Positions 11,760 through 51,196 of a stretch of DNA of 64,000 nt are shown piece by piece. The first letter of the stretch is position 1. Each line of letters begins with the position of its first letter. Source of the stretch: Gammaproteobacteria bacterium (lineage in GTDB: Bacteria; Pseudomonadota; Gammaproteobacteria; Steroidobacterales; Rariloculaceae); NCBI GenBank assembly GCA_022826245.1, contig JAJDVG010000028.1, positions 1 through 64,000 of the forward strand. Reading direction: 5' to 3'. The position numbers and the translations under genes were made by a program. Under the pieces are notes generated by a model, which saw nothing but the letters and a program-made list of their open reading frames with translations, did not search any database and was not told the origin of the DNA.

Positions 11760-12701
11760 ATGACCCATTTCCCACTTGGGACCAGGATCATGGTTGGCGC
11801 ATTTGCGTTGGCCCTGCTCGGCGCCTGCGCCGAAAGCGAAATGCCGCAAGCGCAGGAGGCGCAGGACACTGCGGCCGCGCCGGACATGCCGGCTGCTCCG
11901 CCGGATCTGACGGCAGTCTGGGCCGTCGAAACGCGTTACGTCCTCGAAGGCAGCGCCGCCGGCGTTCCCCTTCAGCTCCACAGCACCAATTGGGCTCCCC
12001 TGAGCGACGGCGTGCCCGAAGAGATTCAAGCACCGACTTTCGAAGAGCAAAGGGCTGGGATTGAACAGGTGATCGCGAGCAATGTGGACCTCTTCGCCCA
12101 ACGTGCCCGAAACCGGTTCCAACCCCCATACAACGAAGCCGGACTAGCCGCGCTTGAGCAGATGCAGGCCGGTCAGACGCCGCCGCAAAACCCGTACGAG
12201 ATGTGCCTGCCAAGCAACGCGACCGGGTTCGGCGGAGTGTTCTCGACCGCGCGTATGGTCCACAAGGACGACCTGATCGTGGCCATATCCCAGGACGGAA
12301 CCGTTCGGCACTTCTATCTCGACGGCCGTGACTCCTCCAACGCCCTGCCCGCCTACGAGGGGCACTCGGTTGGTGGGTTCGACCCGGACGGTACGCTGGT
12401 CGTCGAGACCACAGCCTATCTCGGCACGACATTCAATGGTTGGCCCATGAGCAGCGAAGCCCGCCTGGTCGAAACGCTGAGTCTTTCCGAAGACGGCAAC
12501 GAACTCGCGATCAAGTCGGTGTATGAGGACCCCGTCTATCTTGCTGAACCCGTTGCCCGCATGACCTACATGTTCCGCCAGCCGGCCGACTTCGAGCTGA
12601 TTTTCGACCGCTGCGTGGAAAACGTATATGGCTCACTTGTTTACGACGAAGTCGTGCCAGATTACGTCAACGAACGACGTGAACTTCCGGAAGAGGATTG
12701 A
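11760..12701 (+). CDS. putative lipoprotein of unknown function
   Basis: This 313-residue product starts from ATG 11760, preceded by a good GAGGAGAATAGG ribosome binding site. The signal sequence ends in a lipobox, ALLGAC, so Cys21 or so should be lipidated. After a Pro/Ala-rich linker come LTAVWAVE and, in the C-terminal half, a pattern shared with exported proteins of this neighbourhood (YEGHSVGGFDPDGTLVVETT, FNGWPMSSEARLVETLSL). Similar proteins are often found next to DUF6152 genes, as here, where the next gene starts 3 bp after this stop. Function is unknown. Confidence 0.8.
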   Translation: MTHFPLGTRIMVGAFALALLGACAESEMPQAQEAQDTAAAPDMPAAPPDLTAVWAVETRYVLEGSAAGVPLQLHSTNWAPLSDGVPEEIQAPTFEEQRAGIEQVIASNVDLFAQRARNRFQPPYNEAGLAALEQMQAGQTPPQNPYEMCLPSNATGFGGVFSTARMVHKDDLIVAISQDGTVRHFYLDGRDSSNALPAYEGHSVGGFDPDGTLVVETTAYLGTTFNGWPMSSEARLVETLSLSEDGNELAIKSVYEDPVYLAEPVARMTYMFRQPADFELIFDRCVENVYGSLVYDEVVPDYVNERRELPEED

Positions 12702-12703
12702 TC

Positions 12704-13090
12704 GTGAACAGAACATTTTCGGCTTTATTCCTTGCCATTTTTTGCATTTCTTCTGCGGCAATAGCCCATCATTCGACCAACCTCGGCTACGACACTTCGA
12801 TCGAGGACTTCGAAGTTACCGGCGAATTCATCGAGTTTCGCTGGATCAACCCGCATGTGCTCATGCGCATAAGGCTGACCAACGCGGCGGGCGAAGAGGA
12901 AATCTGGACCGCCGAAACCCATAGCGCCGCAGTTCTCGGTCGCTTCGGCTGGCGCCCGAACATGTTCGAACCGGGCCAGCAACTCACCGTGATCGGCAAT
13001 CCGCCGCGCCGCATGGAAGACCACATCGTGCACATCCAGTACGTGGAAACCGCGGGCGGTCAACGATATTCGGTGAACCAGGCGAACTGA
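12704..13090 (+). CDS. DUF6152-family exported protein
   Basis: GTG 12704 has AAGAGG seven bases upstream and gives 128 residues. A signal peptide (FLAIFCISSAAIA) is followed directly by HHSTNLGYD, so the mature protein should begin with paired histidines, a feature of the DUF6152 family. The rest is a small beta-rich domain (VTGEFIEFRWINPHVLMRI, LTVIGNPPRRMEDH). A copper- or metal-related role has been suggested by the N-terminal His, but nothing here proves it. It is translated from the same unit as the upstream lipoprotein. Confidence 0.8.
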   Translation: MNRTFSALFLAIFCISSAAIAHHSTNLGYDTSIEDFEVTGEFIEFRWINPHVLMRIRLTNAAGEEEIWTAETHSAAVLGRFGWRPNMFEPGQQLTVIGNPPRRMEDHIVHIQYVETAGGQRYSVNQAN

Positions 13091-43587: not shown

Positions 43588-47099
<3,512 letters not shown>

Positions 47100-47108
47100 G
47101 TAACGACC

Positions 47109-47909
47109 TCAGTAGTCCGAACAGGATGTCGGGTTCCAGCCCGAATCGTCGGCCTGTTTCTTGAAATTCGTGCTCGTTACGTAGGGGATACTGAGATACT
47201 GCGGATCCTCGACTATGGTCGTGATGAGCAGCCAGGTATCTCCGTTGGGCATGTCGGCGACATCGTAGTATTCGGTGACCACGGCATCGGCGCTGTAGGG
47301 AACGCCGTTCCAACGCAGGTATCCGGGCCGCAGATTGCTCGTGACCACTTCAAGCGAGCGCCAACGCGGTGAACCGGTTCCAACGATTCCAACCCCGTTG
47401 CCGAGGCCCGGAGGCGGGCCAAACCCGAGTTGCGAGAGCCCGCCCGGCGCCGGTTCCCAGCGCGCCGACGAGTAGCCCTGCCAGGAGGGTTCCATTTCGG
47501 GCGGAGGCTCGCCGCCGTCAAAGCGAAACAGCCGCGTCTGCGTGCCCGCATCGGTGTCGATCCTGAGCGTCAGATCGTCTTCCCAGGAGATGTGCAGGCG
47601 GCCGGGGACGCGCATGATCCCCGCCGCGCCGAAGGGGCGGCATTCCTCGCCCGGCACGACCACGCCGGGCTCCCATTGGTCGGCCACGCGGATACCTTCG
47701 GCGTTGACCGGGATACTGGCGTAGTCGCCCTTGCCCGGCACGATCATGCGCCAGCGCCAATCCTCGGTAACCACCGATACCCAATAACCCGTCAGATCGA
47801 CGGGCGCGGATTCCCGCGGAGACATCTGGGACTGCGCCAATGCGGCGGGTCCGACCGTCAACGTCAGCACGGCCGCCAGCGAAACGCCTGTTCTGGTAAA
47901 GCTGCTCAT
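47109..47909 (-). CDS. exported protein of unknown function (DLTGxW family), second copy
   Basis: From ATG 47909 the 266 residues have a signal peptide (GVSLAAVLTLTVGPAALAQ). The mature part starts with PVDLTGYWVSVVTEDWRWRM and contains ECRPFGAAGIMRVPGRL, then WQGYSSARWE and LRPGYLRWNGVPYSADAVVT. It has the same order of motifs as the protein at 48868-49782 and is probably a distant paralogue. Its ATG overlaps the stop of the metallo-hydrolase gene (ATGA), so the two are co-translated. Function is unknown. Confidence 0.75.
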   Translation of the reverse strand: MSSFTRTGVSLAAVLTLTVGPAALAQSQMSPRESAPVDLTGYWVSVVTEDWRWRMIVPGKGDYASIPVNAEGIRVADQWEPGVVVPGEECRPFGAAGIMRVPGRLHISWEDDLTLRIDTDAGTQTRLFRFDGGEPPPEMEPSWQGYSSARWEPAPGGLSQLGFGPPPGLGNGVGIVGTGSPRWRSLEVVTSNLRPGYLRWNGVPYSADAVVTEYYDVADMPNGDTWLLITTIVEDPQYLSIPYVTSTNFKKQADDSGWNPTSCSDY

Positions 47910-48859
47910 TCGCTGAGACTCCGGTATACGGCTTCCACAAACATTTCCGTTGTCCAAACTCCCGTATCCGCGCCGTATTCGGTGTCGTAGTCGAACGATG
48001 GGCGGGCCGCCTGGACCTCTTCGAGGGACAGGCCATCGTCGATCAGCGCCTGCACGCGGTCGCGAATAATCGTAACCATGTCCCGGTATTCGACCACATC
48101 GGCTTCTTCGGACAGCCGGCCACGCCCGGGGATCACCTTTGTGCCGCCCTCTTGCTTGTCCTCGGGCACCGCGATCCGGATGATTCTGTTCAACGCGTCG
48201 ATGACGCCCTGGACGCTGCCGCCGCGATCCAGATCGATGACCGGGTACAGCTCCGGCGTGTATACATCCCCGGTGCTCACGACATCCGAACGGCGAAACA
48301 GGACCAGGCTGTCGCCATCGGTATGGGCCGCCGGCTGGTGCAGTATTTCTATGGGCTCGCCGTTGAAGTGAATATCCCGGTAGGGCAGGAAATAGGCCAT
48401 GGTTGGCCATCCCTCGGGAGATAGTTGAGTCTCCGGCACGCTTTCGTCGGGCGCCGCGGTCATGCGTACGAGCACGTTCTCGTGGGCGACGATCTCCGTC
48501 TGGACGCCGGTCTCCTGCCGGCCCATGTTCGACAGCGCCTGATTGCCGCCGGTGTTATCCGAATGCACGTGCGTATTGATGATGATGTACCGCACGGGGT
48601 CTTCCGCAAGTTCATGAATCCGCTCGGCGACTTTCGGCGCCAACTCGGCGGCTTGCGTATCCACCAGCAGGACGCCGTCGTCACCGACCTGCAGCGTGGT
48701 GTTGCCGCGCGGCCCAACGAGCATGTAGACGTTGCCTTGAACGGGCAGTACGTGAATCTCGGCGTCAGCCGGATTCTCGCTCTGCTGGGAAAGGGCCGGA
48801 GCGGCCAGCAGCGCCGTCAGGATCGCCGCCGAAAGCCGTTGCGGGAAATGTGGGTGCAT
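47906..48859 (-). CDS. exported metallo-beta-lactamase-fold protein with altered metal site
   Basis: From ATG 48859 the 317 residues include a signal peptide (LSAAILTALLAAPALS), then an MBL fold: VYMLVGPRGNTTLQVGDDGV, IINTHVHSDNTGGNQAL, PAAHTDGDSLVLF and VIPGRGRLSEEADVVEY. The usual HxHxDH is HVHSDN, and the usual PGHG is PGRG. The Zn1 histidines (two in HVH, one in AHTDGD) remain, but two Zn2 ligands are replaced. It may be a mononuclear hydrolase or a non-enzymatic binder. It is flanked by the two DLTGxW genes in one operon. Confidence 0.85.
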   Translation of the reverse strand: MHPHFPQRLSAAILTALLAAPALSQQSENPADAEIHVLPVQGNVYMLVGPRGNTTLQVGDDGVLLVDTQAAELAPKVAERIHELAEDPVRYIIINTHVHSDNTGGNQALSNMGRQETGVQTEIVAHENVLVRMTAAPDESVPETQLSPEGWPTMAYFLPYRDIHFNGEPIEILHQPAAHTDGDSLVLFRRSDVVSTGDVYTPELYPVIDLDRGGSVQGVIDALNRIIRIAVPEDKQEGGTKVIPGRGRLSEEADVVEYRDMVTIIRDRVQALIDDGLSLEEVQAARPSFDYDTEYGADTGVWTTEMFVEAVYRSLSE

Positions 48860-48867
48860 GTCCGGTT

Positions 48868-49782
48868 TCACTCGGGGCAACTGCCCAGCCCGGTGCAAAT
48901 GCAGTACCGGCTGCACTGGGGCGCCGGCGGAACTTCACCCATGGTCATCCGGTACTCCGGATACAGGGTCTGCGCCCCGCCGCGGGCCGCTTCCAATGGA
49001 ACGCCGAACAACTCGGAAAACTCGAGGATAAAGGGGTTTTCGCCCGGCATGACGTGCGGCACCGTGCCTTCGGGCGCGGGTACTTCGGGCGCCGGAGTGC
49101 ACGAATTCGGCCGCATCTGCGCGTTGGGCTCAAGGGCCCAGTTGGAGGTTCTGACCAGCGGTTCGGTCAGGAAGGCCGGATCGTCGATGTAGGTCAGCAC
49201 GGTCAGGTAATTGCCGTGCCGGACCCAGACTTCGGTCAAGGTGGCCTGGGAGCTTCTCGGCATGCCGTTGCGCCGCAGATAGGACGGCTTGAAGTGCGTG
49301 GTGGTCGTCTTGAGCGTATTGCCCTCCCAGACCCCCGTGGAGAATCCCTGCCAGGTATGGCGGGCGTATTCGGGTGGATGGGGGCGGCCGTCCATGTATA
49401 TCGTTCGCTCCATCTCCATCCACGCCATGCGGGTGCGAATGGCGACAAGTTGCTGCGTGTCCGGGTCGAATTCTTCCCAGACCCGCATGGGTACGGACAG
49501 GCCGCGCATGGAATAGTCGCCCCCGTGGGGCCGGCACTGGTACTCCTGGACCGCGGAAATCCTGTTGGGATGGTAGCTGTCGGCCCGCATCCTGGCGGCG
49601 TCGTTGATCGGCAACTCGAGGTAGTCTCCAAGTGCCGGTCCGGGCAGTCGTTCGGGCGCGTCCTCGTGGTACAGGGCGACCCAATCGCCTGTGAGATCGA
49701 TCTGTGCGACGGCTGTCATGCACGGCAACAACAAGCCCGCCATCAAGCCGACTACAGCATGGGCGCCATTCAAGCCTCGCAT
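48868..49782 (-). CDS. exported protein of unknown function (DLTGxW family), first copy
   Basis: From ATG 49782 the 304 residues begin with a signal peptide (AVVGLMAGLLLPCMTAVAQ) and then IDLTGDWVALYHEDAPERLP. Further motifs are YQCRPHGGDYSMRGLSVPMR, WQGFSTGVWEGNTLKTTTTH and KPSYLRRNGMPRSSQATLTE. The C-terminus is Cys-rich (QCSRYCICTGLGSCPE). Such proteins occur in sets in many environmental bacteria, often beside MBL-fold or amidohydrolase genes. It is the first gene of a three-gene leftward operon, with 8 bp to the next start. Function is unknown. Confidence 0.75.
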   Translation of the reverse strand: MRGLNGAHAVVGLMAGLLLPCMTAVAQIDLTGDWVALYHEDAPERLPGPALGDYLELPINDAARMRADSYHPNRISAVQEYQCRPHGGDYSMRGLSVPMRVWEEFDPDTQQLVAIRTRMAWMEMERTIYMDGRPHPPEYARHTWQGFSTGVWEGNTLKTTTTHFKPSYLRRNGMPRSSQATLTEVWVRHGNYLTVLTYIDDPAFLTEPLVRTSNWALEPNAQMRPNSCTPAPEVPAPEGTVPHVMPGENPFILEFSELFGVPLEAARGGAQTLYPEYRMTMGEVPPAPQCSRYCICTGLGSCPE

Positions 49783-49905: not shown

Positions 49906-50634
49906 TCATGCCTGTGCCGCGGGCGGGGAATCCATTTCCGCGATCCTGGCCTCGATCCACGCGCGAACCTCGGCGATGACCTCGCGCGGTTCGCGGCCGA
50001 CGGTCTCGATGGCGGGTCCGACCGCGAACTGAATCGTTCCCGGACGCTTGAGCCAGCCGCGCCTGGGCCAGAAGGCGCCCGCGTTGTGCGCGACGGGCAC
50101 GACGGGCCGTCCCGCGGCGCTCGCGAGCAGGGCGCCGCTCAGCCCGTAGCGTCGCGATTCGCCGTGCGGGACGCGCGTGCCCTCGGGAAAGATGACGATC
50201 CAGAAGCCTTCCGCGAGGCGTTTCTGACCCTCGTCGATGACCTTCTGCACGGCGATGCGCCCGGAGCCGCGGTCGATCGCGATGGGCTTGAGCAGCATGA
50301 GCACCCAGCCGAGGAGCGGCGCGAACAGCAATTCCCGTTTTACGACCCAGGTCTGCGTCGGAAAATGCTTCAGTACCGCGAGTGCGTCCCAGGCGGACGA
50401 ATGCTTGACGAGCAGGACGGTGTTCTGCTCGGGCAGGTTCTCAAGTCCCTGAACCACGTGGTCGAGGCGGCAGAGCTTGCGCAGAAGAAACCGCGCGGAG
50501 TCTGCCCAGTAGACGCACAAACGGTACGTCACGCGGTGCGGGAACGGCGCGGTGGCAAGCACGACGAAGCTGAAAAGCGCAACGGAGACGAACAGATACA
50601 GAGTGAAGGCGATCGAACCGAGCCACTGGCGCAT
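49906..50634 (-). CDS. 1-acyl-sn-glycerol-3-phosphate acyltransferase (PlsC-like)
   Basis: From ATG 50634 the 242 residues include an N-terminal TM (GSIAFTLYLFVSVALFSFVV), the catalytic KHSSAWDALA (HX4D) near 80 and FPEGTRVPHGE near 160. It should acylate lysophosphatidic acid to phosphatidic acid at the inner membrane. In Pseudomonas the equivalent gene follows gyrB and precedes gmhB, the same neighbourhood as here. It starts one base after the gmhB stop. Confidence 0.9.
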   Translation of the reverse strand: MRQWLGSIAFTLYLFVSVALFSFVVLATAPFPHRVTYRLCVYWADSARFLLRKLCRLDHVVQGLENLPEQNTVLLVKHSSAWDALAVLKHFPTQTWVVKRELLFAPLLGWVLMLLKPIAIDRGSGRIAVQKVIDEGQKRLAEGFWIVIFPEGTRVPHGESRRYGLSGALLASAAGRPVVPVAHNAGAFWPRRGWLKRPGTIQFAVGPAIETVGREPREVIAEVRAWIEARIAEMDSPPAAQA

Positions 50635-50635
50635 G

Positions 50636-51196
50636 TCAGCCACCGTGCCGCTCCTCCAGCAGCGCCGCAACGGCGCTTGCGAGGTCGGCGTGGACTTCCG
50701 GCTCGCGGTCTCCCAGGGCTTCGGAGGTTCGCAGCCCATAGCCGGTTCTGACGAGTATCGGCCGCGCGCCAACGGCCAGTGCGGCATCAATGTCTGTCAG
50801 GCTGTCGCCCACGAAAGGCGCATCGCGCAGGGATTCCCCGAAATCGCGTTCGATCCGGCGCAGCAGGCCCGGCGCGGGCTTGCGGCAGTCGCAGCCTTCG
50901 TCGGGCCGGTGCGGGCAGCAATAGACGCCCGCGAGCGCGCCGCCGGCGGCCTCGACCTCGCGCTGCATACGGGCGTTGATCTCCTCGAGCGTGCGCGCCG
51001 AGAAGAGGTCCCGGCCCACGCCTGACTGGTTGCTGACGACGACGACGCGAAAGCCCGCCCGATGCAGTCGCGCGATCGCCTCGAGGCTGCCCGGGATTGC
51101 ATGCCATTCGTCGGGCGACTTGATGTAGGCGGCGGAGTCCCGGTTGATGACGCCGTCGCGATCGAGCAGGACGAGCTGGCCGGCCGCCTCGCCCAC
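50636..51196 (-). CDS. gmhB: D-glycero-beta-D-manno-heptose-1,7-bisphosphate 7-phosphatase
   Basis: This 186-residue HAD phosphatase has the nucleophile motif LLDRDGVINRDS and the GmhB feature YIKSPDEWHAIPGSLEAIAR. VVSNQSGVGR is motif 2. The Zn-binding loop CCPHRPDEGCDCRKPAPGLL is followed by FVGDSLTDIDAA (motif 4). It acts in ADP-heptose synthesis for LPS core. It is operonic with glycyl-tRNA synthetase upstream and plsC downstream. Confidence 0.95.
   Translation of the reverse strand: MGEAAGQLVLLDRDGVINRDSAAYIKSPDEWHAIPGSLEAIARLHRAGFRVVVVSNQSGVGRDLFSARTLEEINARMQREVEAAGGALAGVYCCPHRPDEGCDCRKPAPGLLRRIERDFGESLRDAPFVGDSLTDIDAALAVGARPILVRTGYGLRTSEALGDREPEVHADLASAVAALLEERHGG

Follow-up and report, generated by a model that had tools for sequence, protein, structure and literature searches.

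The stretch analysed here (the window) comprises 64,000 nucleotides of contig JAJDVG010000028.1 from a gammaproteobacterium of the family Rariloculaceae (assembly GCA_022826245.1). Three genes on its minus strand, at positions 49782–47109, are the subject of this report and are designated A, MBL, and B. A (48868–49782) encodes a DLTGxW protein of 304 residues with a cysteine-rich C-terminal tail; MBL (47906–48859) encodes a protein of 317 residues with the metallo-beta-lactamase (MBL) fold; and B (47109–47909) encodes a second DLTGxW protein, of 266 residues, homologous to A. A and MBL are separated by 8 bp, and MBL and B overlap by 4 bp. The motifs of the outer proteins appear in the same order: DLTGDW, WQGFSTGVWE, and YLRRNGMP in A, and DLTGYW, WQGYSSARWE, and YLRWNGVP in B. 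The homology reaches past these motifs, with 37% identity between B and the gene of A (E 2e-11). As judged by eye, all three N-termini carry a signal-peptide-like stretch, ending in AVA, ALS, and ALA in A, MBL, and B, respectively, each directly before a Gln; the proteins are therefore presumably exported. An earlier note, made from the letters of this DNA, had described an MBL gene sandwiched by two exported genes with the shared motif order DLTGxW...WQGxSxxxWE...YLRxNGxP and function unknown. The coordinates and motifs agree with this description, and its "exported, function unknown" stands. A and B matched no Pfam or NCBIfam profile at E values up to 1, and searches of the PDB sequences with the wider family, with A-type sequences, and with B gave weak unrelated matches only.

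The trio lies between gyrB (44685–47099, plus strand, convergent with the trio) and the plsC-gmhB-glyQS block, which begins with a plsC-like open reading frame (ORF) of uncertain start (49906–50790, minus strand). These two genes were identified as the edges of an insertion from gene calls and cross-genome comparison. gyrB was obtained from 19 of the 21 genomes of the family, with one locus (L215) unreadable. Outside the genus, plsC follows gyrB in 15 of the 15 loci with a readable flank; within the genus, the trio separates the two genes in all three members. The insertion supposed in the earlier note is thus confirmed, and the position of the trio at the gyrB-plsC junction is restricted to this genus. 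In genome G019, an A protein 83% identical to that of the window (locus L107) is again followed by MBL and then B. This A gene is not beside the gyrB of that genome, which means that the trio sits elsewhere there, as a unit.

In the window's own genome (3.6 Mb, Candidatus Rariloculus type), the module occurs as six three-gene sets and one A-MBL pair. Besides the window's copy (contig label C44), there are a trio on C15, a trio with B on the opposite strand on C48, the gene order MBL-B-A on C37, a trio with a DUF6152 gene between MBL and B on C28, and, on C10, the order A-MBL-DUF6152-B, behind which the A-MBL pair is found. A scan of a genome collection, seeded with an alignment of 15 A-type sequences, gave 579 confirmed A-type loci, of which the best 80 were analysed; they were selected by A and are uninformative on MBLs or Bs without A. 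Genes were regarded as chained when they shared a strand and were less than 700 bp apart. According to the record titles, 56 of the best 80 loci belong to Acidobacteriota or its classes, 22 to Gammaproteobacteria, Proteobacteria, and kin, and one to Acidimicrobiia; the last is titled Bordetella parapertussis and is surely a mislabelled metagenome-assembled genome. MBL is chained with A in 71 of these 80 loci, and the trio is complete in 50. B is absent from the chain in 29, several of which are cut by a contig end. DUF6152 lies inside the module (A-MBL-DUF6152-B) in six. In 12 of the best 80, A and MBL are fused in one open frame of roughly 550–600 codons that aligns throughout, which implies proximity of A and MBL. 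Furthermore, for 48 full trios, the distances computed from A, MBL, and B are correlated with one another (r 0.69, 0.65, and 0.60; none of 2000 permutations as high), as expected if the three genes travel together, with a contribution from species history. Since the trio recurs, chance adjacency is excluded. The earlier note had named as a refuting outcome that the three genes be found only separately in other genomes; they were found as a unit. Its view of the genes as one system is supported by their joint recurrence. Its term "self-contained" is not supported: B is often missing, DUF6152 is inserted in some copies, and, as described below, A and B represent two lines within a far larger family.

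The MBL protein passes the cut-off of PF00753 (39.9 bits against 22.7; E 6e-10). Its best curated relative is TIGR04559 (E 4e-18), at 65.8 bits below the cut-off of 280. The NCBIfam cut-offs for class B beta-lactamases are not reached (40.8 of 100, 32.2 of 200, and lower for the others). Seven ligand positions were scored, in window numbering: H97, H99, D101, H102, H179, D198, and H246. This scheme follows class B3 enzymes, in which 102 and 246 would correspond to ligands of the second zinc. The window MBL keeps H97, H99, D101, H179, and D198. Position 102 is Asn (codon 48554–48556, minus strand) and position 246 is Arg (codon 48122–48124, minus strand), as computed from the start codon at 48859; in the orthologs of both congeners, these residues are His. 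The full di-zinc set HxHxDH + H + D + H is therefore incomplete in the window copy.

The same comparison was made for 74 trio-type MBLs, with matches of more than 750 nt and more than 300 bits. All seven positions are intact in 39, whereas one or more are lost in 35, in 29 different patterns; the stretches DGD...F.R.SDV...GD and GGT...PG.GR around the ligand positions persist across the set. All ligands are intact in two of the 12 A-MBL fusions and in two of the seven trio MBLs of the own genome, the other five of the latter being ligand-poor. The C10a MBL carries Lys at 102 and Gln at 246. Its orthologs in the congeners are intact, as are those of the window MBL: the 102 + 246 pair was lost twice within the genus, in the window and C10a copies, and again in L152. 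The C28 MBL has the fewest ligands in the own genome (S L H N T D R at the seven positions), and L156 reads S A Q Q H A R. A tree of 90 MBL rows (46 lost, 44 intact), built by a quick method, requires at least 13 changes of state, at least six of them forced by strongly supported branches. We read the direction of these changes as ligand loss; the tree itself gives no direction. MBL-fold matches outside the trios served as a control: in the fetched stretches, 11 of 14 keep HxHxDH, compared with the two of seven intact in the trios. One of the three exceptions adjoins the C37 trio.

The ratio of nonsynonymous to synonymous substitution (dN/dS), obtained by the Nei-Gojobori method against two congeners, was 0.084–0.180 for the seven own MBLs, 0.065–0.143 for A, and 0.106–0.231 for B. 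For the C28 MBL, with its few ligands, the values were 0.084 and 0.094. Ligand-poor MBLs in the genus evolve under purifying selection like the intact ones. Decay of the ligand-poor MBLs was also considered and was rejected on the MBL range given above.

The earlier note had proposed a structure prediction for the DLTGxW domain. The model of A, built on 72 A-type sequences, has nine strands, with a predicted local distance difference test (pLDDT) score of 86.3 and a predicted template modelling (pTM) score of 0.82. Foldseek ranked almost exclusively FABP, CRBP, SAHS, and UnaG barrels at the top, with E values of 1.5e-3 and worse. VIA-align placed NanoLuc in the top row, together with CRBP1 and FABP, at Z 9.1–10.4 over 104–120 residues. 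The GxW of the DLTGxW motif is positioned at the first strand of the model, a mark of calycins. On this model, our reading of A is a secreted barrel of the calycin type; by homology, the same would hold for B. Eight polar residues of A, namely Glu40, His86, Tyr90, Asp131, Arg133, His163, Lys165, and Arg171, are invariant or nearly so in the 72 A-type sequences.

The relation between A and the zinc site of its MBL was examined at 23 hallmark positions of A, for the 57 of 72 A rows that could be placed in two lists (fusions and unplaced rows were left out). Twenty-two are conserved to about the same degree whether the neighbouring MBL is intact or ligand-poor. His243 is the exception: it is kept in 29 of 33 rows beside intact MBLs versus 12 of 24 beside ligand-poor ones. 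A later scan of 264 positions in 74 A-MBL pairs (39 intact, 35 lost) gave p 1e-4 for Asp61 and p 0.002 for Tyr192 and His243; these values, uncorrected for 264 tests and for relatedness, are a lead only. If the pattern is real, His243 could lie near the metal site of MBL.

In the own genome, the family to which A and B belong as two branches has about 100 members, most of them with no adjoining MBL. A tblastn search with A gave 101 matches in this 3.6-Mb genome (E ≤ 10; a few genes counted twice), and an iterated profile found 104 ORFs in the fetched stretches and 105 on gene calls. Ninety-nine members were aligned, one two-domain ORF and four fragments or weak ORFs out of the 104 being left out. 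Two columns of the alignment are invariant (G and D), and eight more are nearly so (W, C, R, S, L, E, P, and C). NCBIfam gave four scattered single weak matches on this family, and no Pfam family covers it; DUF6152 alone recurs widely. Within the same taxonomic family, A as query found matches in 21 of 21 other genomes, 2 to 63 in each (E ≤ 1e-5; up to 60 candidates scored), and, at the same threshold, in none of 17 genomes that belong to the order but to other families. Class-wide, the family profile matched 2 of 232 genomes (E ≤ 1e-10), one of them the window's own, although weak relatives were possibly missed with up to 11 candidates scored per genome. All 15 genomes behind chosen outside loci have family matches, 3 to 118 each. 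A found no match in a plasmid collection. Weak relatives (27–33% identity) of a general member, L077, were seen on eight plasmid records of Novosphingobium, Sphingobium, and Croceibacterium, where they are hypothetical or unannotated. In addition, the contig ends of C37 (L089:6327-6833) and C36 (L096:3771-4277) carry DLTGxW ORFs of equal length (168 aa) and score. This suggests that the assembly may be interrupted at paralogous copies, in which case the family could be larger than counted.

The usual partner of the wider family is DUF6152 (PF19649). The own genome has 48 standalone DUF6152 genes, all confirmed by Pfam, and 67 of the 105 family gene calls lie within two genes of one. Within 24 of the 99 aligned members, a DUF6152 match (E ≤ 0.1) occurs as a fusion. 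The window itself holds such a pair: another DLTGxW member (11790–12701, plus strand; profile match of 137 bits) is followed after 2 bp by a DUF6152 gene (12704–13090, plus strand; E 3e-19). In 47 of the 48 DUF6152 genes, His-His comes right after the signal-peptide-like end, and a Pro-His further on is invariant. The mature protein may begin with histidine, which might form a copper site of the His-brace type. DUF6152 gave weak unrelated matches only against the PDB sequences, and no paper on DUF6152 or Rariloculus was found in the open-licence PubMed Central (PMC) literature; one paper there, on composts, has a term with the stem "rarilocul".

The neighbours of the trios in the own genome are diverse: TonB receptors on C10 and C28; GntR, HlyD, and AcrB-type genes on C15; a PSD-domain cytochrome-type protein and a further MBL on C37; and a DUF5916/CBM9 protein on C48. 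The flanks of the best 80 outside loci were clustered, and one representative per cluster was scanned. TonB/outer-membrane-protein receptors were found at 10 loci, tannase/feruloyl esterase and HpaB-type hydroxylase at six each, and MFS, aldehyde dehydrogenase, VOC, and cobalamin-independent-synthase-type proteins at four each; two more clusters of four had no match. Because tannase, HpaB-hydroxylase, and TonB-receptor genes adjoin the module, the context leans weakly toward phenolic or aromatic compounds as the substrate class. Neither Rfam families at the gathering score nor tRNA genes were found in the window. Two perfect copies of TGTTCCACGTGGAACA, which we take to be the ParB-binding parS sequence, lie at 44003–44018 and 44615–44630, inside recF next to gyrB (none of 100 shuffles gave two); they suggest a replication-origin region.

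Taken together, these results lead us to a tentative proposal, held with somewhat less than even confidence: the exported A-MBL-B module would bind a hydrophobic or aromatic compound by A, with MBL as the partner, catalytic or structural depending on the state of its zinc site. The module would represent one specialised line within a very large and unnamed set of exported barrels of the calycin type. A, and B by homology, would be a barrel holding the small molecule either in the periplasm or extracellularly; B would be a second barrel, often but not always present. MBL would be the dedicated partner of A, encoded in the same gene cluster and, in some lineages, within one polypeptide. An MBL with an intact di-zinc site probably acts as a hydrolase on an ester or lactone bond in the compound that A binds. 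In copies that have lost the site, such as that of the window with two ligands gone, the fold may be retained for binding or for assembly of A-MBL(-B), in a structural or regulatory role.

Several observations weigh against this proposal. In nine of the best 80 outside loci, A has no MBL in its chain, and the neighbours vary widely, no cluster occurring at more than 10 of these loci. No Foldseek match to the A model was found at E ≤ 0.001, so that the calycin assignment rests on the shape of the model. The dN/dS values come from two congeners only, with C10b compared between paralogs, and all data are metagenome-assembled genomes. In the scan of 74 pairs, His243 of A, third of the 264 positions, is kept in 34 of 39 cases beside intact MBLs and in 19 of 35 beside ligand-poor ones, which suggests that the zinc of MBL may matter to A in some measure. 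A model of a natural A-MBL fusion reached a pLDDT of 56.5, with too few sequences, and no interface was seen in it. Moreover, since 39 of the 74 MBLs are intact, hydrolysis may be the main function.

This last point leads to a different reading, which we consider rather unlikely though it must be taken seriously: MBL would be a periplasmic zinc hydrolase, a lactonase or esterase, with A and B as its substrate carriers, and the ligand-poor copies would still be enzymes working with a single zinc or another metal. Besides the copies holding all seven ligand positions, it is consistent with the window copy, C10a, and L152, which lose positions 102 and 246 only; in the class B3 numbering, this would leave one zinc site. 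The best curated relatives of MBL are also zinc hydrolases. However, many copies, such as C28 and L156, lose both sites, and C28 is nevertheless under strong purifying selection; 10 of the 12 fusions lack at least one ligand position. It seems improbable that A itself is the enzyme, with Glu40, His86, Tyr90, Asp131, Arg133, His163, Lys165, and Arg171 as a catalytic cluster in the calycin-type barrel and the MBL fold in support. These eight residues are equally kept beside ligand-poor MBLs, and NanoLuc, which heads the VIA-align rows, is an enzyme; most of the eight are unconserved in the wider family of 99, however, and conservation alone cannot separate binding from catalysis.

Still less probable is a role in the envelope or in metal homeostasis, with MBL and the barrels handling zinc or copper instead of an organic ligand. 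The possible metal site of the DUF6152 neighbours, with their predicted N-terminal His-His and invariant Pro-His, would fit such a role, but known metal transporters were not recognised beside the scanned trio copies, and the window's trio is without DUF6152. We give hardly any credence to a phage, defence, or other mobile cargo, or to decaying genes. The insertion at the gyrB-plsC junction within the genus and the different location of the 83%-identical A in G019 count in favour of mobility; against it, A has no plasmid match and dN/dS in the genus is well below 1. None of the PHROGs or PADLOC families was matched by A, MBL, or B, which counts against phage or defence functions; no search was aimed at mobile-element genes in the surroundings of the trio.

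The proposal of a ligand-binding A with MBL as its partner can be extended to a bolder statement, which we regard as unlikely as it stands: a secreted, unnamed ligand-handling repertoire in which each genome has about 100 barrels of the calycin type, whose partners are either DUF6152, with its predicted His-His N-terminus and possible copper site, or repeatedly zinc-stripped MBLs that act as docking or gating subunits, not as enzymes. The family numbers about 100 in one 3.6-Mb genome and tens in many Acidobacteriota; none of the libraries searched contains a model for it, and no function is assigned to it. The trio makes it more accessible through a defined partner, natural fusions, and, as a natural experiment, a metal site in that partner which close relatives either have or lack. 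If the ligand-poor copies work metal-free, secreted systems of bacteria would have recruited the MBL fold on many occasions as a subunit without enzymatic activity. Both folds, calycin-type and MBL, are known. No described counterpart of the module was found in searches of the open-licence PMC literature, which do not establish its absence from print; likewise, no paper on MBL-lipocalin fusions in Acidobacteria or on catalytically inactive MBL pseudoenzymes and their metal-binding residues was found there. In the available part of a paper on Solibacter paralogs (PMC3174227), no mention of "beta-lactamase" was found.

Since MBL scores under the beta-lactamase and quinoprotein relay cut-offs and A is calycin-like by predicted fold only, the system is filed under no known family. 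TIGR04559, a quinoprotein relay or SoxH-related metallohydrolase, shares the exported MBL fold; the window MBL differs from it in two changed ligand positions and in its DLTGxW barrel partners. Class B metallo-beta-lactamases are alike in the fold and in part of the ligand set, but the scores are far under their cut-offs. The predicted barrel of A aligns with calycins of the FABP, CRBP, and NanoLuc type and has the GxW at its first strand, whereas A has no sequence match to solved structures and, as an exported protein of 304 residues, carries long insertions and a C-terminal extension. DUF6152, the usual neighbour or fusion partner of the DLTGxW family, is absent from the window's trio. A parallel to the ligand-poor MBLs is found in CPSF100 and INTS9, described as metal-less MBL-fold subunits of eukaryotic RNA-processing complexes (PMC4819959). 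The likeness is that of an MBL fold without the HxHxDH residues that is retained as a complex partner (PMC4819959). As judged from sequence, loss of metal ligands in a gene kept by selection is found in five of the seven own copies, with dN/dS within 0.084–0.180, and agrees with the tree. CPSF100 and INTS9 are eukaryotic, have a beta-CASP domain, and are paired with an active MBL homolog, whereas the trio MBL is bacterial, exported, and paired with a barrel: the relation is one of analogy, not of membership.

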